Source: Cheilinus undulatus (lineage: Eukaryota > Chordata > Actinopteri > Labriformes > Labridae). From it: DNA of 64,000 nt. The first letter of the stretch is position 1. Every line of letters begins with the position of its first letter. Positions 17,485 to 60,592 of this stretch are shown in pieces. The notes below the pieces were generated by a model. That model did not search any database, was not told the DNA's origin, and saw only the letters and a list, made by a program, of their open reading frames with translations. The translations under genes and the position numbers were made by a program. The stretch lies in NCBI RefSeq assembly GCF_018320785.1, contig NC_054866.1, positions 8,710,487-8,774,486 on the forward strand. Reading direction: 5' to 3'.

Positions 17485-31475
<13,991 letters not shown>

Positions 31476-37860: not shown

Positions 37861-37968
37861 ATGAGGTCTCTTGCTGGTTTTTGGATCCTTCTGCTGGGCT
37901 GGCCAGCCCTGTTCCATGCAGCATCTGTTTCTTCACCAGTTTCACCAGAGGACGAAGTCCTGGCTGAG
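37861..37968 (+). other. Gene 3 exon 1: signal peptide
   Basis: 36 codons, [13 protein letters not shown] followed by a small-residue region and ending EDEVLAE at a GTAATT donor. It aligns codon for codon with exon 1 of gene 2, with a one-codon deletion. Confidence 0.82.
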
Positions 37969-40900
37969 GTAATTCAGCACCAATTCAAAATATTTAATAC
38001 AGAAAAATCTTATTTATAGCTAAATGATAATGCACAGTACATGTCACAGTTGTCAGAATAATGATAAACTTTAATATAATTCTGGTGAAAATCTAATGAT
38101 GTTGGAACCTGCTTGATACAGAGGCTAAAAGAGAACTCCTGGACACTCAGTGTTGGAATGTGTTAATTTAAAAAGTTAATCAAATTAATCACATCACTAT
38201 GCTGTGATCACAGCATTTTTTAAAATAGTTTTAGTATCTTTTTATGTTTAAAGATTTTTAAAGATTGTTATTGTGGGGGTTTTTCTTACTTTTAATTCTA
38301 TGTACAGCACATTGAATGGCTGATCTGAGTCCTTATCGATACCACTATCGATACTTTCTATAGTTTGGTGGAAAGACAAAACAAGGACAAATATTTGAAC
38401 TACAAGTGGTCTTAGCAGAGTATTGCTTTGGTGTAAAGACAGTTCATCACTGCAGCATGTGCCACAATTTTGGTTTTATCTTGACTAACATCCGTCAGCT
38501 TTTTAAAGAGAGAACTGCCATTAAGCAGACCTGGATCTGTCTCCTCACTCATCACTGCTGGCTGTGTCTGACCTGTCTGTCATCTCTTCATCCCCAGGCA
38601 CATAAACATCCGCACTGGAAGACTACAGGAGCAAGTTGTGGTCAAACATAGTCATATGATTAAATTGCATTATTATTTTCTTAACGTGTTAAGGTTTCAA
38701 TATTAATCACAAGCATTAATGTGTTAATGTAAGCAGCCCAATATTAGGGCTGTCAAAGTTAACGCGTTAATATCGTGTCAACTCAGATTTCTTTTAACGC
38801 CACTAATTTTTTTGTTGCATGATTAACGCATGTGCGTTCTGTGTGACCCTCAACCCATCCTGTAGTTTACCAGATCGGGAAGTGGCGCCGTCGTGATGCA
38901 GTGCAAGTAAGCAGAAATGGATACAGGACAGAGACTTTTAAATGGCAGGTTCAGTTTAAGATCATGTCAGATCGAGCAGAGGCTCCTACTGTGGACATGA
39001 ACTGAGTTACCAGGAGTTCGTAGAATCGTAAATAGCCCGTACCATTCGCTGGCAGAGCACACCGCCAATGCAGAGAGCCGCCCCCCCTAGCCATGCTGGA
39101 TTGTTTACAACCAATAGACTCACTATCTGGCATACCGGTCATTTCCTGGTGGGCCGACACACTTTTTGGCCAGTTTGATTTATTCATTTATCTAGTTCTG
39201 TTTTGTACCTGCTCCATAGTGGTGATGCCCCTTTATATCGACTATTGACTGGTCCAATCACTTCTCCTAAAGGTCTGTATATCCCCTCTCCCATCCCCAT
39301 GCAGCTCCTGCTTGAAAGTGAAAGTATTCTGAGAAAACGAACCAAACGCGCTTAAATGTTCGACTGGGACTGTAAATAAATGCCAAATTCAAAAAACAGA
39401 CAATCAAGATGCCATCAAAGACTCTGCAGTCTCTATTGGAGACGGTCAGATGCAGATTAATATAAAGCTACATCATGAGGAGGAGGAGGAGGAGGGGACA
39501 GATCAGCAGAGTATGACAGGAGCAGAGGTGTTGCAGGTGAGCCTGAGAGTGAAGAAGCTCTGTAGAGTATCATAATATAAGCTAACAAGCATTATTAGAC
39601 TGTGGGTCTCCTTTATTTATGAATAAAAAATGTTTGAGATTAAATCTGTAGCTCTTCTATGATCTGAAGAATGAAAAGATGGTTAGTTCCTCTTACTACA
39701 CCATAAAGGTTCTCCACTGAGACTTCTTTTACTTTTACATTCCAGTGAATTTACTGGACTGATGACAGTAATTTCTTACTGTCAGCATTTATTTTACATT
39801 TGGGCGTTTTTTAAATTTGAAAATAAAAAAGATGATAAATAATAACAGACATTTTTTAAGTAATTACTTGCTTTTTCCCATGAGTAGGGCAGATGTGTCC
39901 ACCTTACTCACCTCTGACCACATCAGAACAGTGAAACACCATTAGTTGTGTCTGTCTTATTGGTGAGCTCTCAGCAGAGACTTGACTTCTCCCAGTAATC
40001 TGTAATGTAATTCTCTAAGTATATTTAGTCTCTCAGTGATCTGTAGTGTAATTCTCTAACTGTATTTAGTCTCTCAGTAATCTGTAGTGTAATTCTCTAA
40101 CTGTATTTAGTCTCTCAGTAATCTGTAGTGTAATTCTCTAACTGTATTTAGTCTCTCAGTAATCTGTAGTGTAATTCTCTAACTATATTTAGTCTCTCAG
40201 TAATCTGTAGTGTAATTCTCTAACTGTATTTAGTCTCTCAGTGATCTGTAGTGTAATTCTCTAACTATATTTAGTCTCTCAGTGATCTGTAGTGTAATTC
40301 TCTAACTATATTTAGTCTCTCAGTGATCTGTAGTGTAATTCTCTAACTGTATTTAGTCTCTCAGTGATCTGTAGTGTAATTCTCTAACTATATTTAGTCT
40401 CTCAGTGATCTGTAGTGTAATTCTCTAACTATATTTAGTCTCTCAGTGATCTGTAGTGTAATTCTCTAACTGTATTTAGTCTCTCAGTAATCTGTAGTGT
40501 AATTCTCTAACTGTATTTAGTCTCTCAGTAATCTGTAGTGTAATTCTCTAACTGTATTAGTCTCTCAGTAATCTGTAGTGTAATTCTCTAACTGTATTTA
40601 GTCTCTCAGTGATCTGTAGTGTAATTCTCTAACTATATTTAGTCTCTCAGTGATCTGTAGTGTAATTCTCTAACTGTATTTAGTCTCAGTGATCTGTAGT
40701 GTAATCCTCTAACTGTATTTAGTCTCTCAGTGATCTGTAGTGTAATTCTCTAACTGTATTTAGTCTCTCAGTAATCTGTAGTGTAATTCTCTAACTGTAT
40801 TAGTCTCTCAGTAATCTGTAGTGTAATTCTCTAACTGTATTTAGTCTCTCAGTGATCTGTAGTGTAATTCTCTAACTATATTTAGTCTCTCAGTGATCTG

Positions 40901-43900
40901 TAGTGTAATTCTCTAACTGTATTTAGTCTCTCAGTGATCTGTAGTGTAATTCTCTAACTGTATTTAGTCTCAGTGATCTGTAGTGTAATTCTCTAACTGT
41001 ATTTAGTCTCAGTGATCTGTAGTGTAATTCTCTAACTGTATTTAGTCTCAGTGATCTGTAGTGTAATTCTCTAACTGTATTTAGTCTCAGTGATCTGTAG
41101 TGTAATTCTCTAACTGTATTTAGTCTCAGTGATCTGTAGTGTAATTCTCTAACTGTATTTAGTCTCAGTGATCTGTAGTGTAATTCTCTAACTGTATTTA
41201 GTCTCAGTGATCTGTAGACTAATTATCTAACTGTATTTAGTCTCAGTGATCTGTAGTGTAATTCTCTAACTGTATTTAGTCTCAGTGATCTGTAGTGTAA
41301 TTCTCTAACTGTATTAGTCTCTCAGTGATCTGTAGTGTAATTCTCTAACTGTATTAGTCTCTCAGTAATCTGTAGTGTAATTCTCTAACTGTATTAGTCT
41401 CTCAGTGATCTGTAGTGTAATTCTCTAACTGTATTTAGTCTCTCAGTAATCTGTAGTGTAATTCTCTAACTGTATTTAGTCTCTCAGTAATCTGTAGTGT
41501 AATTCTCTAACTGTATTAGTCTCTCAGTAATCTGTAATGTAATTCTCTAACTGTATTAGTCTCTCAGTGATCTGTAGTGTAATTCTCTAACTGTATTTAG
41601 TCTATCAGTAATCTGTAGTGTAATTCTCTAACTGTATTAGTCTCTCAGTGATCTGTAGTGTAATTCTCTAACTGTATTAGTCTCTCAGTAATCTGTAGTG
41701 TAATTCTCTAACTGTATTTAGTCTCTCAGTAATCTGTAGTGTAATTCTCTAACTGTATTAGTCTCTCAGTGATCTGTAGTGTAATTCTCTAACTATATTT
41801 AGTCTCCCAGTAATCTGTAATGTAATTCTCTAACTGTATTAGTCTCTCAGTAATCTGTAGTGTAATTCTCTAACTATATTTAGTCTCTCAGTGATCTGTA
41901 ATGTAATTCTCTAACTGTATTAGTCTCTCAGTGATCTGTAGTGTAATTCTCTAACTGTATTAGTCTCTCAGTAATCTGTAATGTAATTCTCTAACTATAT
42001 TTAGTCTCTCAGTGATCTGTAATGTAATTCTCTAACTGTATTTAGTCTCTCAGTGATCTGTAGTGTAATTCTCTAACTATATTTAGTCTCTCAGTGATCT
42101 GTAGTGTAATTCTCTAACTATATTTAGTCTCTCAGTGATCTGTAGTGTAATTCTCTAACTATATTTAGTCTCCCAGTGATCTGTAATGTAATTCTCTAAC
42201 TATATTTAGTCTCCCAGTGATCTGTAGTGTAATTCTCTAACTATATTTAGTCTCTCAGTGATCTGTAGTGTAATTCTCTAACTATATTTAGTCTCCCAGT
42301 AATCTGTAATGTAATTCTCTAACTATATTTAGTCTCCCAGTAATCTGTAATGTAATTCTCTAACTATATTTAGTCTCCCAGTAATCTGTAGTGTAATTCT
42401 CTAACTATATTTAGTCTCCCAGTAATCTGTAATGTAATTCTCTAACTATATTTAGTCTCCCAGTAATCTGTAGTGTAATTCTCTAACTATATTTAGTCTC
42501 TCAGTGATCTGTAGTGTAATTCTCTAACTATATTTAGTCTCTCAGTAATCTGTAATGTAATTCTCTAACTATATTTAGTCTCCCAGTAATCTGTAATGTA
42601 ATTCTCTAACTATATTTAGTCTCTCAGTGATCTGTAGTGTAATTCTCTAACTATATTTAGTCTCTCAGTAATCTGTAATGTAATTCTCTAACTATATTTA
42701 GTCTCCCAGTAACCTGTAATGTAATTCTCTAACTGTATTTAGTCTCTCAGTAATCTGTAGTGTAATTCTCTAACTGTATTTAGTCTCTCAGTAATCTGTA
42801 GTGTAATTCTCTAACTGTATTAGTCTCTCAGTAATCTGTAGTGTAATTCTCTAACTGTATTTAGTCTCTCAGTAATCTGTAGTGTAATTCTCTAACTGTA
42901 TTAGTCTCTCAGTAATCTGTAGTGTAATTCTCTAACTGTATTAGTCTCTCAGTGATCTGTAGTGTAATTCTCTAACTGTATTTAGTCTCTCAGTAATCTG
43001 TAGTGTAATTCTCTAACTGTATTTAGTCTCTCAGTAATCTGTAGTGTAATTCTCTAACTGTATTAGTCTCTCAGTAATCTGTAGTGTAATTCTCTAACTG
43101 TATTTAGTCTCTCAGTAATCTGTAGTGTAATTCTCTAACTGTATTAGTCTCTCAGTGATCTGTAGTGTAATTCTCTAACTGTATTTAGTCTCAGTGATCT
43201 GTAGTGTAATTCTCTAACTGTATTTAGTCTCAGTGATCTGTAGTGTAATTCTCTAACTGTATTTAGTCTCAGTGATCTGTAGTGTAATCCTCTAACTGTA
43301 TTTAGTCTCAGTGATCTGTAGTGTAATCCTCTAACTGTATTTAGTCTCAGTGATCTGTAGACTAATTATCTAACTGTATTTAGTCTCAGTGATCTGTAGT
43401 GTAATTCTCTAACTGTATTTAGTCTCAGTGATCTGTAGTGTAATTCTCTAACTGTATTTAGTCTCAGTGATCTGTAGTGTAATTCTCTAACTGTATTTAG
43501 TCTCTCAGTGATCTGTAGTGTAATTCTCTAACTGTATTTAGTCTCAGTGATCTGTAGTGTAATTCTCTAACTGTATTTAGTCTCAGTGATCTGTAGTGTA
43601 ATTCTCTAACTGTATTTAGTCTCAGTGATCTGTAGTGTAATCCTCTAACTGTATTTAGTCTCAGTGATCTGTAGTGTAATTCTCTAACTGTATTTAGTCT
43701 CAGTGATCTGTAGTGTAATTCTCTAACTGTATTTAGTCTCAGTGATCTGTAGTGTAATTCTCTAACTGTATTTAGTCTCTCAGTAATCTGTAGTGTAATT
43801 CTCTAACTGTATTTAGTCTCTCAGTGATCTGTAGTGTAATTCTCTAACTATATTTAGTCTCTCAGTAATCTGTAATGTAATTCTCTAACTATATTTAGTC

Positions 43901-46900
43901 TCCCAGTGATCTGTAATGTAATTCTCTAACTGTATTAGTCTCTCAGTGATCTGTAGTGTAATTCTCTAACTGTATTAGTCTCTCAGTAATCTGTAGTGTA
44001 ATTCTCTAACTGTATTTAGTCTCTCAGTGATCTGTAGTGTAATTCTCTAACTATATTTAGTCTCTCAGTGATCTGTAGTGTAATTCTCTAACTGTATTTA
44101 GTCTCTCAGTAATCTGTAGTGTAATTCTCTAACTGTATTTAGTCTCTCAGTAATCTGTAGTGTAATTCTCTAACTGTATTAGTCTCTCAGTGATCTGTAG
44201 TGTAATTCTCTAACTGTATTTAGTCTCTCAGTAATCTGTAGTGTAATTCTCTAACTGTATTAGTCTCTCAGTAATCTGTAGTGTAATTCTCTAACTGTAT
44301 TAGTCTCTCAGTAATCTGTAGTGTAATTCTCTAACTGTATTAGTCTCTCAGTAATCTGTAGTGTAATTCTCTAACTGTATTTAGTCTCTCAGTAATCTGT
44401 AGTGTAATTCTCTAACTGTATTAGTCTCTCAGTGATCTGTAATGTAATTCTCTAACTATATTTAGTCTCTCAGTGATCTGTAATGTAATTCTCTAACTGT
44501 ATTTAGTCTCTCAGTGATCTGTAGTGTAATTCTCTAACTGTATTAGTCTCTCAGTAATCTGTAGTGTAATTCTCTAACTATATTTAGTCTCTCAGTGATC
44601 TGTAGTGTAATTCTCTAACTATATTTAGTCTCTCAGTGATCTGTAGTGTAATTCTCTAACTATATTTAGTCTCCCAGTAATCTGTAATGTAATTCTCTAA
44701 CTATATTTAGTCTCTCAGTGATCTGTAGTGTAATTCTCTAACTGTATTAGTCTCTCAGTGATCTGTAATGTAATTCTCTAACTGTATTAGTCTCTCAGTG
44801 ATCTGTAGTGTAATTCTCTAACTGTATTAGTCTCTCAGTGATCTGTAGTGTAATTCTCTAACTGTATTTAGTCTCTCAGTGATCTGTAGTGTAATTCTCT
44901 AACTGTATTTAGTCTCTCAGTGATCTGTAGTGTAATTCTCTAACTGTATTTAGTCTCTCAGTAATCTGTAGTGTAATTCTCTAACTGTATTAGTCTCTCA
45001 GTGATCTGTAGTGTAATTCTCTAACTGTATTTAGTCTCTCAGTGATCTGTAGTGTAATTCTCTAACTGTATTTAGTCTCTCAGTGATCTGTAGTGTAATT
45101 CTCTAACTATATTTAGTCTCTCAGTGATCTGTAGTGTAATTCTCTAACTATATTTAGTCTCTCAGTAATCTGTAATGTAATTCTCTAACTATATTTAGTC
45201 TCCCAGTAATCTGTAATGTAATTCTCTAACTATATTTAGTCTCTCAGTGATCTGTAGTGTAATTCTCTAACTGTATTTAGTCTCTCAGTGATCTGTAGTG
45301 TAATTCTCTAACTGTATTAGTCTCTCAGTGATCTGTAGTGTAATTCTCTAACTATATTTAGTCTCTCAGTGATCTGTAGTGTAATTCTCTAACTGTATTT
45401 AGTCTCTCAGTGATCTGTAATGTAATTCTCTAATATTTAGTCTCCCAGTAATCTGTAGTGTAATTCTCTAACTGTATTTAGTCTCTCAGTGATCTGTAGT
45501 GTAATTCTCTAACTATATTTAGTCTCTCAGTAATCTGTAATGTAATTCTCTAACTATATTTAGTCTCCCAGTAATCTGTAATGTAATTCTCTAACTATAT
45601 TTAGTCTCTCAGTGATCTGTAGTGTAATTCTCTAACTATATTTAGTCTCTCAGTAATCTGTAATGTAATTCTCTAACTATATTTAGTCTCCCAGTAATCT
45701 GTAATGTAATTCTCTAACTATATTTAGTCTCTCAGTGATCTGTAGTGTAATTCTCTAACTATATTTAGTCTCCCAGTAATCTGTAATGTAATTCTCTAAC
45801 TGTATTAGTCTCTCAGTAATCTGTAGTGTAATTCTCTAACTGTATTTAGTCTCTCAGTAATCTGTAGTGTAATTCTCTAACTGTATTAGTCTCTCAGTAA
45901 TCTGTAATGTAATTCTCTAACTGTATTAGTCTCTCAGTAATCTGTAGTGTAATTCTCTAACTGTATTTAGTCTCTCAGTAATCTGTAATGTAATTCTCTA
46001 ACTATATTTAGTCTCTTAGTGATCTGTAGTGTAATTCTCTAACTATATTTAGTCTCTCAGTAATCTGTAATGTAATTCTCTAACTATATTTAGTCTCCCA
46101 GTAATCTGTAATGTAATTCTCTAACTGTATTAGTCTCTCAGTAATCTGTAGTGTAATTCTCTAACTGTATTAGTCTCTCAGTAATCTGTAGTGTAATTCT
46201 CTAACTATATTTAGTCTCTCAGTGATCTGTAATGTAATTCTCTAACTGTATTAGTCTCTCAGTAATCTGTAGTGTAATTCTCTAACTGTATTAGTCTCTC
46301 AGTGATCTGTAGTGTAATTCTCTAACTGTATTTAGTCTCTCAGTGATCTGTAGTGTAATTCTCTAACTGTATTAGTCTCTCAGTGATCTGTAATGTAATT
46401 CTCTAACTGTATTAGTCTCTCAGTGATCTGTAGTGTAATTCTCTAACTGTATTAGTCTCTCAGTGATCTGTAGTGTAATTCTCTAACTGTATTTAGTCTC
46501 AGTGATCTGTATTGTTATTCTCTAACTGTATTTAGTCTCTCAGTGATCTGTAGTGTAATTCTCTAACTGTATTTAGTCTCTCAGTAATCTGTAGTGTAAT
46601 TCTCTAACTGTATTAGTCTCTCAGTGATCTGTAGTGTAATTCTCTAACTGTATTTAGTCTCTCAGTGATCTGTAGTGTAATTCTCTAACTGTATTAGTCT
46701 CTCAGTGATCTGTAGTGTAATTCTCTAACTGTATTTAGTCTCTCTTAGTGATCTGTAGTGTAATTCTCTAACTGTATTAGTCTCTCAGTGATCTGTAGTG
46801 TAATTCTCTAACTGTATTAGTCTCTCAGTGATCTGTAGTGTAATTCTCTAACTATATTTAGTCTCTCAGTGATCTGTAGTGTAATTCTCTAACTGTATTT

Positions 46901-47694
46901 AGTCTCTCAGTGATCTGTAGTGTAATTCTCTAACTGTATTAGTCTCTCAGTGATCTGTAGTGTAATTCTCTAACTATATTTAGTCTCTCAGTGATCTGTA
47001 GTGTAATTCTCTAACTGTATTAGTCTCTCAGTGATCTGTAATGTAATTCTCTAACTGTATTTAGTCTCTCAGTGATCTGTAGTGTAATTCTCTAACTGTA
47101 TTTAGTCTCTCTTTTTTTGTATCATCCTGTTGTGAGTCCTCTTGTTGTAAAGGGATGATTGTGAGCCTTTATTTCCCCCATGTGAGGTTGAAATTCTCTG
47201 CTTTAAGTGTGAAGGTTCAGGAATGATCTTTGAGTGATTTAAACTTGACCGACCATGCTCTTTATGTCCATGTGTGATTTTTAGATTGTTCTGTGCTAAG
47301 CTGCTGAGAACAACGGAGGAGTTAACTTCTAGAAGTGTGAAGTTTGACTCTACACTGTGGTATCATTCAGTAATGTTACATCTGTTTCTCTTGGGCTTGA
47401 GTTTACCATGTTATGCTCTCAGCATATTTTTGGAGCATTCACTATCTTTGAACTTAGTCAAGAGAATTTTCTGGATATTATCAGTTGTTTTGGGTTGTTG
47501 GCCTTACCAAACATTTGTATAAAGAAAGCATTTTTGTCTACTTGTGTTGTTAAGAATATTTCAATCTTGAAATATAGTCCTGTATGGTACATTTAGAACA
47601 GATAATAAAGTGTGATTAATTTGTGAATAATCTCAAGTTAACTATGAAATTTGTGAAATTAATCGTGATTAAAAATTTTGATCCATTGACACCC

Positions 47695-47756
<62 letters not shown>

Positions 47757-50700
47757 GCCTGGCCAAAAAAAAAAACAACAACAAAAGTCCCCACCTGGAT
47801 TTAACTAAGCAAATAGGTACGAGCCTCCTATTGGATAATTACTGCATGGGTGATTATCCAATAGGAACAAGTTATTTAACCCCAGCTGATGCAATGAGTA
47901 ACTTCTCATTTCTTAAACAACCATGGCGAAAGACATCCTGTGGTCGTGGAAAAGATGTTAGTCTGTTTAAGAAGGGTCAAATCATTGGCATGCAAAAAAG
48001 GCTTCAGTTTGCTAGGGAGTATAAAGATTGGACTTTGGAGGAATGGAAGAAGGTCATGAGGTCTGATGAGTCCAGATTTACCCTGTTCCAGAGTGATGGG
48101 CACATCAGGGTAAGAAGAGAGGCAGGTGAAGTGATGCACCCATCATGCCTAGTGCCTACTGTACAAGCCTGTGGGGACAGTGCTGTGATCTGGGGTTGCT
48201 GCAGTTGGTCAGGTCTAGGTTCAGCAACATTATGTGCCCAAAGAATGAGGTCAGCTGACTACCTGAATATACTGAATGACCAGGTTATTCCATCAATGGA
48301 TTTTTTTTCTACCCTAATGGCACGGGCATATTCCAAGACGACAATGCCAGGATTCATCAGGCTCAAATTGTGAAAGAGTGGTTCAGGGAACATGAGATAT
48401 CATTTTCACACATGGATTGGCCACCACAGAGTCCAGACCTTAACCCCATTGAGAATCTTTGGGATGTGCTGGAGAAGGCTTTGTGCAGTGGTCAGACTCT
48501 CCCATCATCAATACAAGATCTTGGTGAAAAATTAATGCAACACTGGATGGAAATAAATCTTGTGACATTGCAGAAGCTTATCGAAACAATGCCACAGCGG
48601 ATGCGTGCTGTAATCAAAGCTAAAGGTGGTCCAACGAAATATTAGAGTGTGTGACCTTTTTTGGTAGCAACTTTTTTTTTTTGGCCAGGCAGTGTGTGTA
48701 TGTATGTATATATATATATATATATACGGTGCTTAACAAATTTATTAGACCACCCTAACCCTAACCAAAGTAAGGTTTATGCCACAGCTGCCCTAAATTA
48801 ACAGCATTGGTAATTACCAAAATCATTTTTTATGTTTCTGCAATGGTTAATACACCAATATGTAGAAGCTTTTTAACCAAAATGATATTTTTAATGCTAA
48901 AATAGAATTATTATTGTTATCCATGAATTTTCACATTTGCGGATTTACAAAAAAACTGAAAAAAATAGTAAAGCACATTAATATTTCTTGATTAATATGT
49001 CAAATTATAGTTATTTACTTGAATTCCTGAAGAGAAAGAGTTTTAGTGGTTGAATGTTATGCTTGATTCATTTCTGACTTCTCAGACAAGCCCAGTGAGC
49101 CGGCTCAACATTGGGTTTAAAAAGGTTAATTCAGTTTGAAATCCCTCATTCCTATTCAAAATGGTAAAACGTGGAGAGCTCACTGACAATGAAAGAGTCC
49201 ACATTAAAGCACTTCATGATGCTGGATGGTCTCTGAGACAAATATGACAGGTGGTCTAATAAATCTGTTAAGTCAGGAAATTTGTGTTTGGTACATTATT
49301 TCTTTGTTGTAACGATGCTTCTTGGTAATAAATCTTATTAAGTTGGAAAGCCTGTTTATTTTCCTTTTAATTGGTACCACATTTGTAAGGAACATTTATT
49401 TGTGGGATGAGCAGCAGAGCTGAGTATGTGGGTTGCACCCATGAAAAATTTGCCAAATCTTCTCTGTCATTGATAATGAAAACAGTCAAATTAAAAGAGC
49501 TCCAGACATTACATTTTCTCCTTTCATAATTGAAGTCCATACAGTCTTTCTATGGCCTTAAGGTACAACAACAAAGAAAAGGAATTAAGATTTTCTCCGG
49601 AAATTATTTGGCAAAATGTGTAGAATTGTTTTTTAACTTTGACTTTAAAAAAATCTCCCACTATTATGCTCTGACCTTGAGGTGACTGGTGCGTTGAACA
49701 ATGAAACACTTCCGGTGATGAAGAGACCGAGGTGTGGTCTGCTAGTTGTCCGCCGATACGTATTCTATGATGGAAGACCCAAATGGGGGAAAAAGCTGAT
49801 TACATACAGGTAACTGAATGTAACATAATCTGGCAACATGTGAATATTCTTTACATTTTACTAGCATAATTTGATTTTCTTTCCCTGATGCATGACCAAA
49901 AGACAATCAGAACATTTGCAGGCAGAGTAAGGATGAGCTATGGTGATAGTTTAATTAAACAACCTCCCATTAGTATACTGTATGTGCACAGTGGGAGAAT
50001 CAATGTATGGACAGGGGGATGTTCCTGCAGAGAAAAATCAATGTGTCAGTACTTTTTCATGACCAGAAAATAAAATCCTTTATCTACTCCTACAAGTTCC
50101 ACATGTCAGCGTTGATAAAAACACGACTGTATGTCTGACCTTTAAATGCGTTGACTCTTCTGTCCTTCTAAAGCTTACTTTACGGCCCATAATCTACCTC
50201 TGCTGCATTATAGGGTCAGTGACGAATAAGGTTTTAAAAAAGTGGAAAAATTTAAATGAGTTAGAAAATGTAAATGTAAGCTCCTTTTAACTTTAGTTGA
50301 ATGTTATGTATATATTTAAAAAAGTTTTGTTTTCTTAAAATGAAATTTATGCATTTTTATTGCAATAGTTATGCAAAACTTTGGCTTCATTTGTAAATTG
50401 GTAGAATTTTTTCCTCTCATATCTTGATTATATCACATTTTATTAAAAAACAAACTGAAAACAGGTACCACTTTAATTCATAAATGTGATCTAACAAGGC
50501 AAAAGGCAAATATTAAACATAAATCTTTTTTATATTGCTTGTAATTGGGATGAAGTAAACATCTGTTGAGTATTTTAACATAAAATTGTTTGATTATGTT
50601 GAATTAAAAACCCACAAATGCAACAGGTCCACCAGACCCACCAACACTGGCTGAACAACAAAAATATGAACACCACACAAGGGTAACGCATGCAGGTTCA

Positions 50701-52478
50701 AGAAGTCTGTTGGCTTAGCCCGTTCTGTCCACCTGCATGCAGGGGTATTGCGTTGGATGATTCATTGTTGTTATTATTGGTCGTGGATATACCTTCTCTC
50801 AAGGCTGAGGCTCACACGTTATGAAAATGAATAAATGACTGAAGTCATCTGCTCCACTGCTGACACATTCTGCCTTCCTTGCTCACACTGCACTCTTGTA
50901 GACATTCATGTAGAACTTCTTAACTCTCCAGTCTGCTTAACACTCTGTTGGTCACCTGAAGTACAGGCACCTGATGGCACAATCCTGACAGAGGAGTCAG
51001 CTGCAATAGAAGGAACAATGGTCTGACTACTTTGAGGAGTGTACAGGGCAGATCTTCTCAGGTGTGAGCTGAAAATGGATGCAGTAATAGGTGCAGTAAG
51101 GGTGGAACCACTTGTAAACTGTGGTCCACCAACTTTTGGGGAGACTGAACAAGCTGAAGTCCGGGAAAGCAGCAGTGGGTTCCAGGCTGAGATGCTCAAG
51201 GCAGGTGTTGAACCTCCCTCCATGTTCTCATCTGCCCTGTATGGAGAAGAGGCATCATCCCTACTGACTGGAGCAGGGGCATTGTTGTTCCAGTCCTGAA
51301 GGGAAAGGATGATGTGTGAGGGTCTAACAACTGCAGGGGTAGTCTCACAGTCCCGGGTAAGGTCCTTGAACTGATTCTGCTAAACAGGACCAGCTGCTCC
51401 AACACCAGCGGCCTGAACAGTCAGGCTTAACACCGAATAAGTCTACGGTGGAACACATCCTGGCAAACGTCACTGAGCACTTTCGGGGATTCAACAAAGT
51501 TGCTTGCAGCCTATGTTGACTTCCAGAGATGCCCTCTAGAGGATTCTGGAGCTTCATGTGATCCCACATTCGCTCTTTCAGCTGATGTTTTCCTTACACT
51601 CTGGTACAGAGAACGCTGTGAAGTATGGGGGCTGCACCTCTGATGTCTTCCTAGCTGATCCTGGGGTTAGGCAAGGGCCCCTACACTCATCAGTACATGT
51701 ACAGTGCCGTGAAAAAGTATTTGCCCCTTTCCAATTCCTTATTTTTTTTTTTTTTTTTTTTTTTGCATATTTATCACACTTTAATGTTTTGGATCATCTC
51801 ACAGAGACAACCCAAGTAAATAAAAAGGCATTTCTAAATTATGATATTATGTATTAAAGGGGACATATTATGCAAAAATCACTTTTTCACTTTTTCAGAA
51901 CAGAAGCATAGAGAATCACACAAACCCTGTGTGTAATAACAGCACGTAATTGGAACAGCTGATTCAATGAAAGCAAACAGAGCTTTTAAATTTACATTTC
52001 ACCATGATGCTGTTGTTGTTTAACCTGAAACCTTCAATACTAAGTGGTTGGGAAAGGGCAGAGGATTTGAAAAAAAAACTCTGAGTGTGATTGAATGAAC
52101 GTCTGTCACATTTACGGGAAAATCAGAGTAACAAAACACGTGTCGTAGCCGCCACCAAGGTGCGTGTGCGCAGCCACTGAGGAATAACGCGAAACATGGC
52201 GACTGTAGACATGTCGGTACACAACTTTTGTCATTTTTTAAAGAAATAAACTCACTGCTGTTTTTTGTTCTTCTTTAAATGGAGAAATGTCATCAAGTTC
52301 TGATAAAACTGGCGCTTTCGCTCTTATTAAATAAATAGTCTCGGCTCGAGTCCAACGCTTGCTTCCGGCGGCCATCCTGGAAAATGTGCCCGCTAGCCAC
52401 GGAATATGTGCATCATCGCGACAGGACAAGGGGACGAGCATGCGCAGAATGAACGCATACATGATGGAGGAATTATTA

Positions 52479-52515
<37 letters not shown>

Positions 52516-55500
52516 TAATTAGGATTTAAAATCAGAATAAACCACCCACTTACTTCCTGTTTAAGTTTAATTCGGAATGGTCATTTTCATTCGGAATTAG
52601 GTGTTTACAAGGTCTTTTTAAAGAGGATTTAACTTTTATTTGGAATTAAAGCCCTCATGTAAATGTAGCCAATGTCATGCTGTCCTGTCTGTCATCTTGT
52701 TGCTCAACAAGCTAACAATGCACGCGTATCTTTGGCACAGAATGTTTACCTTCCGCTGGCACGGCGCTACGTGCCAATGTGTGTACAGGAAGCAAGAAGG
52801 ACAAACAGGAAAAACAGGACAAATAATCAGTTACTTTCAGTAACGGAATTATTTTCATGAAAATGTAACTAATAACGGTATTACTTGATTACTTGAATTG
52901 TAAAACTAATGCATTACGTTACTCGTTACAACAAAACAATAGTCATAGTACTCTAACAGATTACTTTGTAATGCGTTACCCCCAACACAGCTACCACCAT
53001 CCACAAAAAAGGATCCTGGTGGCTAAGAAAAGGGCTTTGTTGCAAGAATAAATCAATCTCTGATTTAATACATTTTAATTGGATTAACATGTTTCCATGT
53101 ATTCCATGTATATAAAGTTCCTGTTTTACTTGGACTCACACAATAATTCTACTTTTTTTTAACTGCATGTAAGTTAATGTCCTGATAGTTGCATTTAATG
53201 ATGATGATGACTGATTGTGTGGTATGATTTAAAGGATCACTAATTACACTTCAGACCTGGCCCAGGAAACAGTAGATGCAACCATTGCTCAGGCCTTCCA
53301 GCTCTACAGTGATGTCATCCCTCTGGACTTCAGGCAAATCCACTCTGGTACTGCAGACATCGAGATGTTCTTTGTAGCTAAAGGTAAGTCTGGTTTTAAT
53401 CAGATATTCTGACACAGTCTTAACTCCTACTCAAAAATTAAATACGATGACATGTCACTTTACAGTTAGTCTTGTTGCCTCCTTGTTGGATTAATTTGAC
53501 CTCACGGTCAAAGGCCTTTCTCTCTTTGCATGCAATCAGATGATGTATTGTTTGAATTTGATGTGCTGCAGAACACGCGGACGGTTACAACTTTGATGGG
53601 AAAGGTAGAACCATGGCTCATGCACAACGTCCAAGAAAAGCTCAGGGAGGGTTTGTACACTTTGATGAAGATGAAACCTGGACTGTTAGTGAAAAAGGTA
53701 AATAGTGTATACGCTTCATTGAAGAATCTGTTTAGTTCACTGATGTGATTCATGCATTTTCACCTACAAACTGCTGAAAGCCACAGGCTACCAACCGCTG
53801 GCATACTAATGAAAACAATGTATTGCAACCACAGTTCCTAAAAGGTTGGGGCACTTTGTAAAATGAACATTAAAAAAGAATTAAATATTTTTATTTTTAT
53901 ATCTCATAAATCCATATTGTATTCACAACAGAACATAAACAACATATAGATTTAGAATCTGAGACATTATACCATTTAATGAAATATATTAGCTGATTGA
54001 ATTAGATAGCAGCAAAACATTTTTGAAAGGTAGGGACAGGGGAATTAAAGGCTGGAAAAGTAAGTGGTACTTAGAAAAAAAAAACATGGAGGAAAATTTT
54101 GCAGGTCATCTTACTGCTACAACTGTTGGCACATCTGTGTGTGTCTGTGTCGATTTGCATGCCAAACAGTTGCTTCATTTGTCCTTGATATGTCTCAGAA
54201 GACTTCTTGGGTGTACTGGTTCAAAACTGGTGATGTAAAAATCATTATGTACAGATTTTCTATAAAATTCCAAAATGTTTTGCTGAGTCTTTATTCAGGG
54301 ACTTCTGTTGCATTCCATTTACCACAGAAGTTGGATATTGGAGCTGGGAATGACATCACACCCGAGTTGAATGCGTTCCATTTTCCACAAGCTCGTTAGG
54401 TTAATTGGCATCAAGTCAGAAACATGACTGGGGGTGCTTCTCACTTCCCTTATTATAAGGCTTGGGTCTTTGGCGTGAGTCTTTTCCTTGAGTCTTAGTT
54501 CCGCCCACCAGAGACTCATGGAGAGACCGAGGAATCGACACGGAAGACTGAAGCCATAAGACTGATGTTTAACGGTCCACGGTATGTCCTTCCCTCTGCA
54601 GCGTCACGTGAAGCGACGTCAGTTTATGATGACGGTGCGGCTGATCATCAATCAGCTGATCATCATCAATCAGCTGTCAGGAGGCAGAAACAGCTGTGTC
54701 TGCATAATTTGTATTGTATTTATTTAAAAAAATCTCTACATTTACAGTGTTTGGTCTCAGTGTGGATCAGAAAACACCTGCATGAAGAGAAACCTGCAGT
54801 AAACATCAGGAGTTTAAAAGGCTCAATAACTGATGGGCTGGCATTTTAAAAAGTGTTTGAAATAAGCATTTACAGTGGAATGTTGAGAATATATTTAATA
54901 AAATCAATATTAAAGAGTGAATCAGTATGGAGTTTAATATTTGATTTGATTTCTGATTCAACTTCAGCATCAAAATGTTAAAAGCTCATAAAATCAACAG
55001 AATCAGATATAAATCTGATCTCTTCATAATCTAAACAGAAATAACCACTAAATAGACTACTATACCACCCAGCAAATATTAGTTATAAAAGACGTTAAAA
55101 AAACGGCTCCACTCCAAAAAAATGTCTAGATTTAACTGAAAAGTGAAAGGTAAAATAATGTAATTTTCAGGTCGCAATATGGTCATATTTTAAACGACTA
55201 TTTTTGGGCTAAATTTGGACTAAAACAGACGGACAAAACATGGCTCAATTTCCTACGACTATCTTTTCACTAAAGGTTATGACAGATGTAGAAATAAACG
55301 TCTAAATGATGTCAGTGTTTGGGGGGAAAGGGAAGATTTATATCTGAATCTTTAGATTTTATGAGCTTTTAACATGTTTTATGGATGAAGGTGAATCAAA
55401 ACAAATCAAATATTAAAACCCATACTGATTCACTCTTTGTCATTTATTTTATTTAATATATTCTCAATATTTCACTATAAATTCTTGTTTTAAACACTTA

Positions 55501-58500
55501 TTTTAAATCCCAGCCCATCAGTTAATGAGCTTTTTCTAAACTTCTGATGTTTATATTCTGTTTAGAGTCCGCTGAGTCCGTTTATCATCTGTAATAAACT
55601 CTGTTTCTCCTCCACTATTTTTTGCTGCTGCTGCTGTATAGTTTCACTGACATCCACTATGTAGCAGTGTCCAATCAGAGAGTGATATCCAATAAGGGGG
55701 CGTGCCTCTGAGTAAAAAGAGATCCAGGTAGCCTGCTCTCATGTGTCTTTGCTCATCGGTCTTCAAATCTCAGTCCTCGGTCTCATGGCTTGGGTCTTAG
55801 ACCCGTCTAAGGGCTTTGGCACGGCCGTCAAGATGGCGGATCAGAAACTACTTCCGGTTCAAGCAAATCCATAGGCTCGAGGACCGATCTATAAGGGATT
55901 TGGGATCCGGCCTGGGTATAAAAGGAGCATTTTAGAGAGACACAGTCTATCCGAAGCATTGATGTGCAGAAATTCATGTGTCTGTTAAAGAGAACATCTG
56001 AACGTTGTAGAAAATTTTCAGAAAACAATCCTCAACATGAAGAGGAGAGGGATCATCCAGCTTGTTATCAGCACACAGTTCAAAAGCCTGCATCTCTGAT
56101 GGTATGGGGTTGCATTAGTGCCTGTGGTGAGGTCAGCTTACACATCTGGAGGCACTATCAATGCTGACGAGTATTTAGAATTGTTAGAGCAACATTATCC
56201 TATCTAGACAGCATCTCTTTCAGGCAAGGCCTTGTATATTCAAGACCAGTGGTTCTAAAATGGGGGTACGTGTACCCCTGGGGGGTACGTGAAGGCACTC
56301 CAAGGGGTATGTGAGATTTTGAAATATATTCTGGCTATTTCAGAAAATATCGCCTTTCTATGCACGTCAGGAGCAACACGATGTTGCAAGTATATTATAT
56401 ACATTTTAAAATCACATTCGTGCTGCGAACGTCTGCAGTGTGTTTTCTCTGTCCTCTAAAAAACAGTGATATTCATTGGAGCGGAAGATAAAAGGTTTCT
56501 CCCTCCCCGTCCTTCACTCCATGCATAACTTGGCACTTTTATGCACAGCCAGGACGTCAGTCTAGTTTCACTGTTCATTAACTGTGCCAGCCAAGTCTGT
56601 AAGAGGAGGGACTGACTTTTCATTCATCCTATGTCAAATATGATTAATAAGAGTAATAAGGGCACAGCTGAGGGTCGCGGTGAGAGGAGTTAACTCACAC
56701 TACGCACAGATTGGCTCACCTGTTTGTGTTCCAGAGTGGTCAGAGGAGTAATTTCAGTGAGCTGGTTGATCCGTAGCATTTATAAGTAGTATGTCTGAGG
56801 TCAGAGGAGACTGTGTTGGTAAATATTTCACTGGAATAAAGTCCCGTTAGTTTAGAAACAGCTCCAGCTGTGCGAGTAGCGCATTTGCGCTCATGTGGAC
56901 ATGCCGGGCTGCCTGCTGCCTGTCTCCCTCTCTACCAGGCTACATGAGGCAAAAACACAAGCACTGACTACAGACAGATATGAGGAGAGGACAAATATCA
57001 GGTGGTGTTATAGAGGAGAACAATTTTGTTCCTCTGTCTGCCTTAAAAATGGGCACCACCACCACCAAGTGCACTCATCGGAGCGAAACTTTGAAAAAAT
57101 ATCTGCAGCAATGTCACGCTGTGAAATGATGTAGCAGGTGTGAAAGCTTGCATTGACTCGCTACAGGTTCGAAATGTAAATATTTAGTGTGAGTAATTGC
57201 GAAAAAAATGTGTATAGAGTGTAAGGACTTAAGTTAATGAAGCGGAGTTTATATTTTGTAAATTAATTAAATTTAGTGACCCTAAAACCTCCTGAGTCTC
57301 CCCCATGGCAGAATGGTTTGACCCACACTGGCACATGCCTGTCAGTCACTGTATTCACGTCACTCCATTCATAAAAAGCTTCATGATTTATTTTTGTGAG
57401 GAAATGCTGACTAGTTCATGATTTCAGTTTGAGAAGAGATCTTTATTATGATCCCAAAAAGGGGCACTAAGCTGTCGTTTTATAATTAGTTAATTATTTA
57501 CAGGTTTTTAGTTCTTTCTAGCTCTATGTTTTTATTTCCAAATTGTTCCAGAGAGACCACTGCAGCCGAGCAGAGTTTTGCACACTCTGGGTTTAAATGG
57601 TTTTATGTCTTCCACTCACTGTTTTCAACACCTTAATTTGAATTCCATTACATTTAGTGATGAGAAAATGTGCCATGAATTTAGTCAAGCATTTCTAACA
57701 TTTAAAATGTTTGAAAAAATATTTGTAACTTATACTTGTTTATCAGTTACAAAGTTTGATAAATCAGACAGTTGTCACAGCGCTATTTAATATGTTTCTT
57801 TTTGGCCAAAAGTTTTGAGCTGTTTAGGGAGTACTTGGCTGAAAAAATACTTCACAGGGGGTAAATGACCGATAAAAGATTGAGAACCACTGTTCAAGAC
57901 AATACTTAGGGAACGTAATATGCAAAAAAACACTTTTTCAGGCTTTTCTAACACAAATATGTCCCCCTTGCCTGTCCACAATCCCCTCAAGTACCAGAAA
58001 AATCCATTCCCTCCCCCCCTCTCTTTCTCCACCTTTCAGAAAATGTGCTAAAACAAGCTATTCTCAGATTGTAGATCTAGTGACCTCACCAGGGGCTTAA
58101 GCACCCACCCCCAAGTTTGGTTGGCCCTCCCCAACTTGGAGGAAAGTTCCACCCTCCTCTACTGATCTTCCTCTCAGTTACAAGCTGAGATGCTGGATAG
58201 CTCAGTGGGTTACCCTGCTGACTACGGTCTGGGAGATTGATGGTTTTAATCCCAGTCAAGTCCTAAACTTTGGATAGAAGTGTCTGTAACATCAGGAGTG
58301 CTGCATCCATTTTCTGAAAGGGGTGGGGTCAGACAGCTAATTACCATTTAAAGCCACAGAAACGGCTCATTTTGAGAAGGGCTGACACAGAGGGGTTTGT
58401 AGACATGAAAAAATCCTATACTGGAGTGTTTTTTCAGCAACAAACTTCACAGGCAAGTTTTGGGGACATCTGAGAACAATATAAACTTGTCTTTAAATGG

Positions 58501-60592
58501 TAAAATATGTCCCCTTTAACCACATTCAACACAACAACATGGCTTCACAGTAGAAGAGTCCAGGTGCTGAACTGGCCTGCCTGCAGTCCTGACCTTTCAC
58601 CAACAGCAAACATCATTAAACAAAAGATCAAGCAAAGACGACCCAGGACTGTTGAGCAGATAGAATTCTAGATCGGACAAAAATGTCACAACATTCTTCT
58701 CCCAGAACTCCAGCAACTGTTCTCCTCTCTTCCCAGGAGTTTACATACTGTTGTTAAAGGAAGAGGGGATGCTACACAATGTTGACTATGACCTTGTCCT
58801 TACTTTTTAAGATGTGATGCTGCCATCAAATTCAAAATGAGCTAATATTTTTCATCAAATGGTAATATGTCCAAAATTTTAAACATCTATTATGTGGTTT
58901 ATGTTTTATTTTAATAAAACAGGGTTTTTGAGATTTGCAAATAATAGCCTTTTGTTTCATTAAGGTTTTATATAGTGCCCCAACTTTTTTGGAAGAGTGG
59001 TTGTTTTCTGGACTAAATATGTGACTGTTTTTGTGGTCATTACTGTGTTAAGAAGCAAATCTGCTGCTGGTGGCCGCCCATGAGATTGGGCATTCCCTGG
59101 GCCTGGATCACACCCAGGACAACAGCACACTAATGTACGAGGAATATAATTACTTCGACACAAAAGGATACAAGCTGCCAGATAATGAAAGACGTGGGGT
59201 TCAAGCCCTCTACGGTAAGAAAACATCAATACAACAATTCATTTTAATACTGGGTTTAAAAGTAAGACGGTTATAGTGAGTTTAAGGCAAATGATCTGAA
59301 GACATTTCTATGAAATATACAGTGCTTAACAAATTTATTAAACCACCTGTCGTATTTGTCTCAGAGACCATCCAGCATCATGAAGTGCTTTAATGCGGAT
59401 GCTTTCATTTTCACTGAGCTCTCCACGTTTTACCATTTTGAACAGGAATGAGGAATTTCAAACTGAATTCACCTTTTTATATCCAAATTTGAGCCAGCTC
59501 ACTGGGCTTCACTGAGAAGTCAGAAATGAATCAAGCATAACATTCAACCACTAAAATTCATTTTTCTCTTCAGGAATGCAAGTAAATAACTATCATTTGA
59601 CATATTAATCAAGAAATATTAATGTGCTTTACTATTTTTCTTTTTTTTTTTTGTAAATCAGTTAATTTAAAAAATAAATGGATAACAATAATGATTATAT
59701 TTTAGCATTAAAAATATCATTTGGGTTAAAGAGCTCCTACATATTGGTGTATTAACCATTGCAGAAACATAAAAAATGATTTTGGTAATTACCAATGCTG
59801 TAAATTTAGGGCAACTGTGGCATAAACCTTACTTTGTTTACGGTTAGGGTGGTCTAATAAATTTGTTAAGCACTGTATATAACTGTCAAATATCTAATTA
59901 GCTTTCTAATTATAATATTGAATAATGTTTGCTGTGACATTGAAATGGTTGGGTCAGAATTTGGACATTAACAATATGGAAGTGTACCCAACCACCAACA
60001 ACCATGGCAGATTCAAAGTCCCCTAAAACACCTTTCTTGATGTTTCTCAGCCTGAGCATCAGCAGGTCACCTTGTTCACGTCTACCTGCCAAAATTCTTT
60101 AGGTCTAGAAATACGATTGGTTAAAAAGATATTTGTGTAAATGAACAGTTGAACAGTGAGGTATACCCAGTGAAGTGTTCAGCAAGTCTATTTATAGAGA
60201 TTTATGTTTGGTTTTGATGACTAACAGCCATATTTTCATCACTTTTGTGGTTTTACAAATCTTTCTCTCAGGCTCCCGTCAGCCAGTGGAGCCTAGCCCT
60301 GAAGATGAGCAGTGCAATCGCACTCTTGTGTTTGACGCAGCTACCTCCTTTCGTGGAGACCTCGTCTTCTTCAAAAATGGGTACTTTTTGAATATTTGTT
60401 CTTCTCTTACTTTTATAAAGAATATCATCATGCATCTTCTCATACTTCAGTGTTTAATCCAAACCAGGTACTATTGGAGAAAGTGTTCAAAAGACATCTA
60501 TTTCACCAATGTGAACACAAAATGGTCAGAAATCTACATTGTTGACGCTGCATATGAGGTTCCTCACAAAAATGTGGTGTATCTTTTTGAAG
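37861..60592 (+). CDS. MMP paralogue of gene 2 with reduced propeptide; 5' part, continues past the window
   Basis: Exons seen: 37861-37968, a remnant 49536-49562, 49682-49809, 53235-53383, 53572-53697, 59053-59214, 60272-60380, 60468-60592. Lengths of exons 2b, 3, 4, 5 and 7 equal those of gene 2 (128, 149, 126, 162 and 125 nt), and all are open in the expected phase. Signal peptide [13 protein letters not shown] is intact. The catalytic domain keeps [11 protein letters not shown] and Met-turn LMY. The cysteine switch reads PRCGLLV instead of PRCGVSD, losing the conserved Asp. GGD before the HFD motif has become GGF. The hinge is 28 codons shorter than in gene 2. Exons for hemopexin blades 2-4 are not in the window. 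It may be a gene with an altered latency module or an early pseudogene; the open frames and kept active site favour the former, the eroded exon 2a the latter. Confidence 0.75.
39471..39498 (+). repeat. Short GAG/AGG microsatellite
   Basis: Run of GAGGAGGAGG inside the left flank of the hAT-like element. Confidence 0.7.
39987..47111. repeat. Minisatellite, about 41-bp unit, about 175 copies
   Basis: 7.1 kb of head-to-tail units of the form TAATTCTCTAACTGTATTT + AGTCTCTCAGTGATCTGTAGTG. Three length classes are visible: 41 bp, 40 bp (GTATTAG in place of GTATTTAG) and 39 bp (AGTCTCAG in place of AGTCTCTCAG). Point variants recur: CTATA/CTGTA, CTCCCAG/CTCTCAG, GTAATC/GTGATC, TAATG/TAGTG. Variants occur in runs; for example 39-mers dominate 40960-41290 and 43180-43760, and CTCCCAG units dominate 42160-42720. 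This points to expansion by local block duplication. It lies in intron 1 of gene 3. Confidence 0.97.
47697..47755. repeat. TA/CA dinucleotide microsatellite
   Basis: About 46 nt of alternating TA followed by a short CA run, at the boundary between the hAT-like element and the following Tc1-type element. A second short TA run follows that element near 48708-48726, as expected if it inserted into the microsatellite. Confidence 0.9.
47753..48694 (+). mobile_element. Tc1/mariner element, internally deleted transposase
   Basis: Matching inverted ends CACTGCCTGGCCAAAAAAA and TTTTTTTGGCCAGGCAGTG. The transposase reads on + from about 47921. An N-terminal piece ([11 protein letters not shown]) is fused by deletion to the DDE domain. 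The first Asp is in SDESRFTLF, the second Asp region (near 48340) is broken by a frameshift, and the Glu is in [11 protein letters not shown] in the next frame (48370-48645, ending GGPTKY). It is about 0.94 kb, against the usual 1.3-1.6 kb. No longer active by itself. Confidence 0.85.
48727..49272 (+). mobile_element. Tc1-derived MITE copy (family with GTGCTTAACAAATTTATTAG ends)
   Basis: About 545 bp. It retains the first codons of a transposase ([20 protein letters not shown]) near 49162-49247, followed by the right inverted end. The last bases (CACTG) are missing where the next element begins. Confidence 0.8.
49275..49470. mobile_element. Solo terminal repeat of the 10416-11590 Tc1 family
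   Basis: AGGAAATTTGTGTTTGGTAC through GTGGGATGAGCAGCAGAGCT repeats the left terminal repeat at 10416. It directly precedes the eroded exon 2a of gene 3. Confidence 0.75.
49536..49562 (+). pseudogene. Gene 3 exon 2a remnant
   Basis: Encodes SIQSFYGLK, aligning with MQSFFGLE at the end of gene 2 exon 2a, and is followed by a conserved donor (GTACAA). The upstream 90 nt of the exon, which encode the first propeptide helix in gene 2, are missing. An in-frame TAA lies four codons upstream of the remnant. A pyrimidine-rich tract and AG end exactly at 49535, so a 27-nt in-frame microexon is possible. A Tc1-type inverted-repeat fragment lies just upstream (49275-49470). Confidence 0.6.
49682..49809 (+). 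other. Gene 3 exon 2b: altered cysteine switch
   Basis: 128 nt, open, same length and phase as gene 2 exon 2b (20745-20872). It begins [10 protein letters not shown] and contains PRCGLLV. The family consensus is PRCG(V/N)PD, in which the Asp stabilises the Cys-zinc latency bridge; here Val replaces it. Confidence 0.8.
49810..51159. other. Intron 2b of gene 3, left part
   Basis: AT-rich; nothing recognised before the LINE fragment at 51160. Confidence 0.45.
51160..51690 (+). mobile_element. LINE reverse transcriptase fragment, degenerate
   Basis: Broken frames contain [34 protein letters not shown] and a VWGLHL/ARAPTL region, which correspond in order to conserved blocks of fish non-LTR reverse transcriptase. 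Frameshifts and stops throughout. Lies in intron 2b of gene 3. Confidence 0.65.
51705..51860. mobile_element. Tc1-type terminal fragment
   Basis: CAGTGCCGTGAAAAAGTATT, a long T run and GATCATCTCACAGAGACAACC form the outer part of a common fish Tc1 family; the rest is absent. Confidence 0.5.
51861..53234. other. Intron 2b of gene 3, right part
   Basis: Holds the left end of a piggyBac-like MITE (51856), the ATT microsatellite, and a DNA-transposon end near 52850-52990 (CGTTAC repeats ending ACCCCCAACACAG). No exon until 53235. Confidence 0.45.
52467..52516. repeat. ATT trinucleotide microsatellite
   Basis: About 50 nt of TATTATTATT. Confidence 0.9.
54800..55555. repeat. Long inverted repeat (foldback), arms about 220 bp
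   Basis: 54800-55020 pairs with 55333-55555: for example AACTGATGGGCTGGC with CAGCCCATCAGTTAATG, AAAGAGTGAATCAGTATGG with CATACTGATTCACTCTTTG, and TTAAAAGCTCATAAAATC with GATTTTATGAGCTTTTAA. Loop of about 310 bp. Weaker pairing continues outward to about 54480 and 55800. Confidence 0.8.
56247..57892. mobile_element. hAT-type element with exact 8-bp target duplication TTCAAGAC
   Basis: Ends CAGTGGTTCT and GAGAACCACTG are inverted; TTCAAGAC occurs at 56239-56246 and 57893-57900. 1646 bp. No full transposase. Inserted in the Tc1 transposase of the surrounding element. Confidence 0.88.
57907..58519. mobile_element. piggyBac-like MITE
   Basis: Left TTAGGGAACGTAATATGCAA and right GTAAAATATGTCCCCTTTAA are imperfect inverted ends with a TTAA-like target. 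A related left end, TTAAAGGGGACATATTATGC, occurs at 51856. Confidence 0.55.
58192..58262 (+). repeat. tRNA-like segment (SINE head)
   Basis: GGATAGCTCAGTGGGTTACC resembles an A box and GGTTTTAATCCC a decayed B box, with spacing near that of a tRNA. No CCA-stem pairing convinces me, so it is a SINE head inside the piggyBac-like element rather than a functional tRNA. Confidence 0.5.
59320..59875 (-). mobile_element. Tc1-derived MITE copy in intron 5 of gene 3
   Basis: Ends CAGTGCTTAACAAATTTATT and AATTTGTTAAGCACTG with TA on both sides. It occupies a different intron from the gene 2 copy, so it inserted independently. Confidence 0.82.

Follow-up and report, generated by a model that had tools for sequence, protein, structure and literature searches.

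An in-frame tandem MMP gene of Cheilinus undulatus with a deletion in its propeptide and a possibly weakly latent product

Gene 3 of an MMP gene cluster in Cheilinus undulatus (humphead wrasse, a labrid; genome 1.17 Gb in 46 contigs) is open through 11 exons in a single frame, and most of one propeptide exon is gone through one deletion. The gene begins in the window analysed here, a stretch of 64,000 nucleotides at C2:8710487-8774486. We put at about even the chance that it is an in-frame MMP gene without the bait region, the product of which is weakly latent and the catalytic domain of which is diversifying. This reading draws on observations of four kinds, namely, the gene structure, the deletion, the residue changes, and the pattern of selection. 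A more far-reaching version is unlikely in our judgement: that gene 3 is a functional secreted MMP without zymogen control, the germline-encoded equivalent of a bait-cleaved enzyme, active from the start and controlled by its site of expression or by inhibitors, and that positive selection acts on its catalytic domain within a five-copy Cheilinus cluster.

The region contains five closely related MMP copies, each with exon 2 split into 2a and 2b: copies A and B (C2 8528-8562 kb) lie on the minus strand and genes 2, 3, and 4 on the plus strand. Gene 3 was rebuilt to its end, giving 435 codons and a TGA stop, with GT-AG at all ten introns (Table 1). An earlier note on this DNA had proposed the exon coordinates, including the junction at the end of exon 1 (37968), and these were reproduced in one frame; exons 8-10, which it expected to the right, were recovered at C2 8777429-8781946 free of stops and frameshifts. 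Exon 1 differs from that of gene 4 by one change, and the signal-peptide-like start with its phase 0 donor is conserved in 5/5 copies. The Pfam domain Peptidase_M10 matched residues 79-234 (E 4.5e-53), and both the HExxHxxGxxH motif and the Met-turn of the matrixins (M10A) are present. The Hemopexin domain was also matched (E 1.1e-32), with the bounding cysteines in EQC and LECY, and the hinge is shorter than in the four sister genes. When signs of a pseudogene were examined, neither stops, frameshifts, nor intron loss was found in the 11 open exons. The NCBI protein of gene 3 (P0001) likewise carries SIQSFYGLK and PRCGLLV. It differs from the rebuilt gene by five extra N-terminal residues and by a 13-residue extension after exon 5, which results from a GTTTAA donor in place of GTAAGA and keeps the frame; the choice of this donor by NCBI might reflect transcript evidence. 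Models built by the same method were identical to the NCBI proteins for copy B (P0004) and gene 2 (P0008), and those of gene 4 (P0003) and copy A (P0005) differed from NCBI only by extra N-terminal residues, the copy A model also by one X.

Table 1 Exons of gene 3 and other features of its locus. Positions are those of the window unless C2 is given.
Feature	Position	Strand	Description
Exon 1	37861..37968	+	Start codon; putative signal peptide; some 15 N-terminal propeptide residues; end phase 0
41-bp tandem repeat	39988..47111	+	About 176 copies, 95% matches, 7.1 kb, occupying a large part of intron 1
Deletion junction	49531	+	Left and right sides match gene 4; one shared base
Exon 2a remnant	49536..49562	+	27 nt, nine codons SIQSFYGLK; weak acceptor AAG
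Exon 2b	49682..49809	+	Altered cysteine switch PRCGLLV (PRCGLLVV); acceptor GAG, CAG in the four sister genes
Exon 3	53235..53383	+	Catalytic domain
Exon 4	53572..53697	+	Catalytic domain; contains HAD, MAHA, and VHFDED
Exon 5	59053..59214	+	[11 protein letters not shown] and Met-turn TLMYEEY (LMY)
Exon 6	60272..60380	+	Hinge and start of hemopexin domain; 109 nt, 127-193 nt in the four sister genes
Exon 7	60468..60592	+	Hemopexin domain
Exons 8-10	C2 8777429-8777594, 8777727-8777830, 8781843-8781946	+	Right of the window; open; end TGA

Among the best 120 of 1503 matches, the four closest to the gene 3 model, fused models aside, were Cheilinus copies, and the best identity to a protein from another species was 60%. 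Twenty-eight of these 120 were aligned, and a tree was constructed from 27 of them, the Chanos row (P0070) being left out. Genes 2, A, B, 3, and 4 fell inside a clade with collagenase 3-like proteins of three other wrasses (support 100/99). Within it, the five Cheilinus copies were supported at 94/86, the group of A, B, 3, and 4 at 100/100, and the pair of genes 3 and 4 at 100/97. No member from another species was placed among A, B, 3, and 4 in this tree, and the end branch of gene 3 was the longest of the four (0.20). Furthermore, the start regions of genes 3 and 4 are 95.6% identical over about 600 bases. Gene 3 is a young tandem copy of the teleost collagenase 3-like/mmp30 gene and the sister of gene 4.

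Gene 3 was compared with gene 4 around exon 2a. A stretch of 1216 bases of gene 4 has no counterpart in gene 3, consisting of 1134 bases of intron 1, including the acceptor, and 82 bases of exon 2a. On the left of the junction, positions 49471-49531 correspond to gene 4 intron 1 (8794186-8794245, 92%); on the right, positions 49531-49570 correspond to gene 4 exon 2a from 8795462 (95%). This alignment shows a single deletion, joined at about 49531, and not a gradual erosion of the propeptide, which the earlier note had called eroded. Exon 2a is 117 nt long in gene 2 and 114 nt in gene 4, and the gene 3 propeptide is incomplete, as 27 nt of this exon remain. The remnant is in frame and comprises nine codons, as the earlier note had described. 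Its claim that the first 90 nt are gone holds against gene 2, whereas the new acceptor leaves the exon 87 nt short of gene 4 and the deletion itself takes 82 nt by that comparison. Copies A and B have, like gene 4, the sequence directly before exon 2a that gene 3 is without; the deletion is therefore derived in gene 3. When intron 1 was searched with the exon 2a peptide of gene 2 and with DNA of gene 4 intron 1 and exon 2a, no second, complete exon 2a was found, and the sole plus-strand match was at 49530-49570. The 1216-base stretch of gene 4 contains a 537-base repeat, a relative of which is inverted in intron 1 of gene 3. In intron 1 of gene 4, the matches to the 41-bp repeat lie within a single unit (C2 8793473-8793513), and the array of gene 3 therefore probably expanded after the duplication. 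An open frame at 48280-48645 of the window, also in intron 1, presumably resembles a transposase of the Tc1 type.

The splice sites around the remnant were scored with a matrix made from 40 acceptors of the four related sister genes. The AAG acceptor of the remnant scored -0.45, the lowest of the 40 sister acceptors 1.54, and a second, in-frame AG (CAG) nine bases on 1.51. Moreover, 41% of the 536 AGs in two gene 3 introns outscored the AAG, and 26% outscored the CAG. It may be that the nine codons do not form an exon, because the acceptor lies below all 40 sister acceptors and many intronic AGs score higher; on its splice site, the nine-codon exon is doubtful, although the NCBI model uses it. 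Since exon 2a has phase 0 at both ends, the mRNA would be in frame with the remnant, giving 435 residues, or with the exon skipped, giving 426. The altered acceptor of exon 2b scored 9.5 against 10.9-12.9 in the sister genes, and 1.9% of the 536 AGs scored higher.

We also examined the residues of the cysteine switch and the active site. As had been noted, the switch of gene 3 differs from the PRCGVSD of gene 2; in copies A and B and gene 4, it reads PRCGVPD. Compared with the matrixin pattern PRCGxPD, gene 3 keeps Arg and Cys, and the Pro-Asp is gone. The place of the Asp is occupied by Asp in 26 of the 28 aligned proteins, by Glu in one, and by Val in gene 3 only. The three zinc-binding His and the catalytic Glu are kept in genes 3 and 4. 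Gene 3 also keeps the Met of the Met-turn, and the statement that its later exons are open and keep both motifs was borne out. HAD, MAHA, and VHFDED in exon 4 presumably mark the places of the structural zinc and calcium ligands. At 14 gap-free columns, gene 3 differs from a residue that is identical in the 27 other proteins; three of these were dropped because they stem from the 13-residue extension of NCBI. The 11 remaining comprise two propeptide and nine catalytic-domain residues, the hemopexin domain being free of them. Six such changes were counted in the row that came second, and one in gene 4. One of the nine catalytic changes replaces the Pro directly behind the Met-turn (LMYE for LMYP). 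We take this Pro to be part of the S1' wall, and its change could damage substrate binding.

The introns of genes 3 and 4 differ at 615 of 4976 aligned sites (60 gaps), giving a K of 0.135. Using this intron K as the rate, we simulated neutral evolution and counted genes as intact when they had no stops, frameshifts, or splice-dinucleotide changes, the splice part being approximate. An intact gene was left in 0/5000 runs over the whole branch, in 0.06% over half of it, and in 3.0% over a quarter. Neutral decay of gene 3 over the whole time since its split from gene 4 is thus unlikely. The early decay that the earlier note offered as its alternative finds no support in this form; a decay that started late on this branch is conceivable.

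Changes were assigned to the branches with copy B, and the introns of the same genes were used as the yardstick (2711 sites). In the site-level count, the catalytic domain of gene 3 showed 34 nonsynonymous changes in 342 sites against 63 in 1260 sites of introns 3-5 (ratio 2.0, p 0.0013; range 1.9-2.0). The hemopexin domain showed 16/448 against 77/1146 in introns 7-10 (0.53, p 0.017), and the ratio against all introns was 0.67, which was not significant (p 0.13). For the propeptide remnant, 10/118 was observed (1.6, p 0.14); the synonymous counts of gene 3 were small, being six in the catalytic domain and none in the propeptide remnant. A stricter, matched codon-level count gave 1.6 for the catalytic domain (p 0.041), 2.2 for the propeptide remnant (p 0.025), and 0.68 for the hemopexin domain (p 0.20). 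In the first polarised count, with unmatched denominators, the catalytic domain changed at 1.1-1.2 times the neutral rate, which was not significant, and the hemopexin domain at 0.42-0.53 (p 0.001-0.018). The three methods showed the same directions with differing strengths; the p values are nominal, across several partitions and branches, and rest on small counts, and the figures for gene 3 span the whole branch since the split from gene 4, before and after the deletion together. Gene 4 resembled gene 3 (catalytic 2.0, p 0.009, or 1.6, p 0.05; hemopexin 0.19), and copy B was constrained in both domains (0.38 each). The nonsynonymous rates of the catalytic and hemopexin domains differed in gene 3 (p 0.0003) and gene 4 (p 2e-5), and not in copy B (p 1).

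In the codon model, omega on the gene 3 branch was 2.87 for the propeptide remnant and the catalytic domain together (2dL against omega 1 of 6.7, 6.5, and 6.1 under three topologies). For the propeptide remnant alone, omega was at its upper bound (2dL 6.2). Not significant were the catalytic domain alone (2.14, 2dL 3.1), the hemopexin domain (0.54, 2dL 1.6), and the whole coding sequence (1.37, 2dL 1.25). Taken together, the simulation, the rate counts, and the codon model suggest that gene 3 was probably maintained over the greater part of its history, its enzyme half changing faster than drift predicts.

In the general view, secreted MMPs require a zymogen lock. We considered what would be left of this lock in the gene 3 product. 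The Pfam domain PG_binding_1 was found just above the cut-off in gene 4 and copy B and was absent in gene 3; this absence counts for little, because the matches are near the cut-off and the domain is also missing in the precomputed domains of several relatives, P0003 of gene 4 included. When aligned to proMMP-1 (1su3), the retained part of gene 3 joins at KQMQEFFGL. In a low-confidence model of gene 4, the propeptide helices are placed at residues 34-48, 62-75, and 86-93, and exon 2a covers residues 42-79; in gene 3, the segment equivalent to 71-79 is left. Judging from this model, the gene 3 product would lack the bait-region loop together with about half of helix 1 and the greater part of helix 2. 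The AlphaFold models, made on 28 sequences, had a mean pLDDT of 65.8 for P0001 and 67.5 for P0003; in both, the hemopexin domain was confident and the propeptide and catalytic domain were poor, with lower catalytic confidence in gene 3.

An excerpt of PMC10910010 describes the loop between helices 1 and 2 of the propeptide as the bait region. According to an excerpt of PMC7290392, cleavage there strips away a portion of the prodomain and leaves the remainder, with its cysteine-zinc contact, destabilised. In gene 3, the deletion took the 3' end of intron 1, the acceptor, and the start of exon 2a. The product, if the gene is transcribed and spliced as modelled, would keep the signal peptide, both ends of the propeptide (some 15 residues at its start and, at its end, the stretch with the switch Cys), and the catalytic and hemopexin domains. 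If folded, it would mimic the proMMP intermediate after bait-region cleavage, with the cysteine-zinc contact loosened. Little latency would be expected, because the bait region is absent and the switch Asp is lost, and activation might easily be completed by the enzyme itself. With the middle of the propeptide and the switch Asp absent and the zinc site intact, the weak latency proposed in the earlier note would be a sound expectation. Secretion of MMP-28 depends on propeptide residues according to an excerpt of PMC2989691, and the gene 3 product might therefore stay in the cell. How bait-region cleavage destabilises the remaining prodomain is called an unanswered question in the excerpt of PMC7290392, and gene 3 and its full-length sister gene 4 would provide a ready-made test pair for it. 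The same pair would test whether a secreted MMP persists without latency.

Several known systems resemble gene 3 in part. The teleost mmp30/collagenase 3-like proteins have the catalytic and hemopexin domains and the tree position in common with it, but gene 3 is without about 30 of their propeptide residues. Chanos P0070 is a late-starting row like gene 3 and is perhaps a partial model. The propeptide of MMP-26 (matrilysin-2) is of ordinary length. As in gene 3, its switch is altered (PHCGVPDGSD, in an excerpt of PMC10910010) and is called unusual in an excerpt of PMC7290392; however, a different switch residue is changed, and MMP-26 is described there as having no hemopexin domain, unlike gene 3. 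The same excerpt gives MMP-23 a short propeptide and no standard cysteine switch, comparable with gene 3, and likewise no hemopexin domain, whereas gene 3 has both this domain and the switch Cys. The bait-cleaved proMMP intermediate, again in the excerpt of PMC7290392, is without the bait region and retains the switch segment, as the gene 3 product would; in gene 3, however, the gene itself and not a protease accounts for the absence, and some 15 residues at the start of the propeptide are retained. Among the literature matches listed, the titles and the starts of the abstracts mentioned neither a propeptide-truncated mmp30 nor these Cheilinus copies.

Gene 3 may instead have worked until lately and then been broken or crippled by the deletion, so that it is now a stop-free pseudogene. 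We regard such a recent decay as possible but doubtful. The lost acceptor with its poor replacement and the weakened acceptor of exon 2b would fit it, although both splice routes stay in frame. The change of 11 otherwise invariant residues also agrees with decay, but none of the 11 is in the hemopexin domain and the zinc ligands are untouched. Even a neutral last quarter of the branch, the shortest period simulated, left 3.0% of the genes intact, and the hemopexin constraint was not significant against all introns; however, the catalytic changes lie above the neutral rate instead of equalling it.

The same excess bears on a poorly or non-proteolytic role based on the hemopexin domain, as a binding partner or decoy, in which the catalytic domains of genes 3 and 4 were released and the hemopexin domains kept. 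This role would account for the different rates of the two domains in genes 3 and 4 and not in copy B, but release alone is not expected to give faster-than-neutral change. The Met of the Met-turn in gene 4 and the following Pro in gene 3 are gone, as it would allow, whereas both genes keep the three zinc-binding His and the Glu, and we consider this role quite improbable. We rate it as highly improbable that the exon 2a deletion is an assembly collapse beside the 7 kb tandem repeat and the transposons. The junction is about 2.4 kb from the tandem array and is matched by gene 4 on both sides, although the intron is rich in repeats, one of which ends just before the matched stretch at about 49472, and a single assembly was examined. 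The change in the switch is independent of the deletion. The small contig C44, which was checked for an alternative version, holds another MMP type; its MMP exons match genes 2, 3, and 4 at 24-44%, and C44 was rejected as an alternative haplotype of the cluster.

Several further observations were made on the cluster. A frame starting with MCGPCCC at 37361 was considered as exon 1 of gene 3 and rejected; it recurs before gene 4, where the ATG is absent, and copy A is preceded by a similar stretch. The segment at 37861-37968 was preferred for its conserved signal-peptide-like start and phase 0 donor. This frame (window 37361-37426; VCGPCCC before gene 4 at C2 8790096) belongs to the duplicated unit, is conserved, and is easily taken for exon 1. 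We take the stretch to be a retroelement tail. In exon 5 of gene 4 (C2 8800892-8801053), the Met of the Met-turn is lost (ALLFP against ALMYP), the only such case among the 28 aligned proteins. Exon 4 of copies A and B and genes 3 and 4 encodes GGF before the structural HFD, whereas the other 24 aligned proteins have GGD, the Asp of which is presumably a calcium ligand; the change probably arose in the common ancestor of the four. Finally, an intron divides exon 2 in genes 2-4, in copies A and B, and in an MMP at C2 8675-8681 kb, which we take to be MMP13-like, whereas gene 1 and the gene at 8699 kb have no such intron (split exons at window 20491-20607 and 20745-20872, and C2 8680574-8676844). 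This distribution points to an intron gain or loss inside the propeptide.
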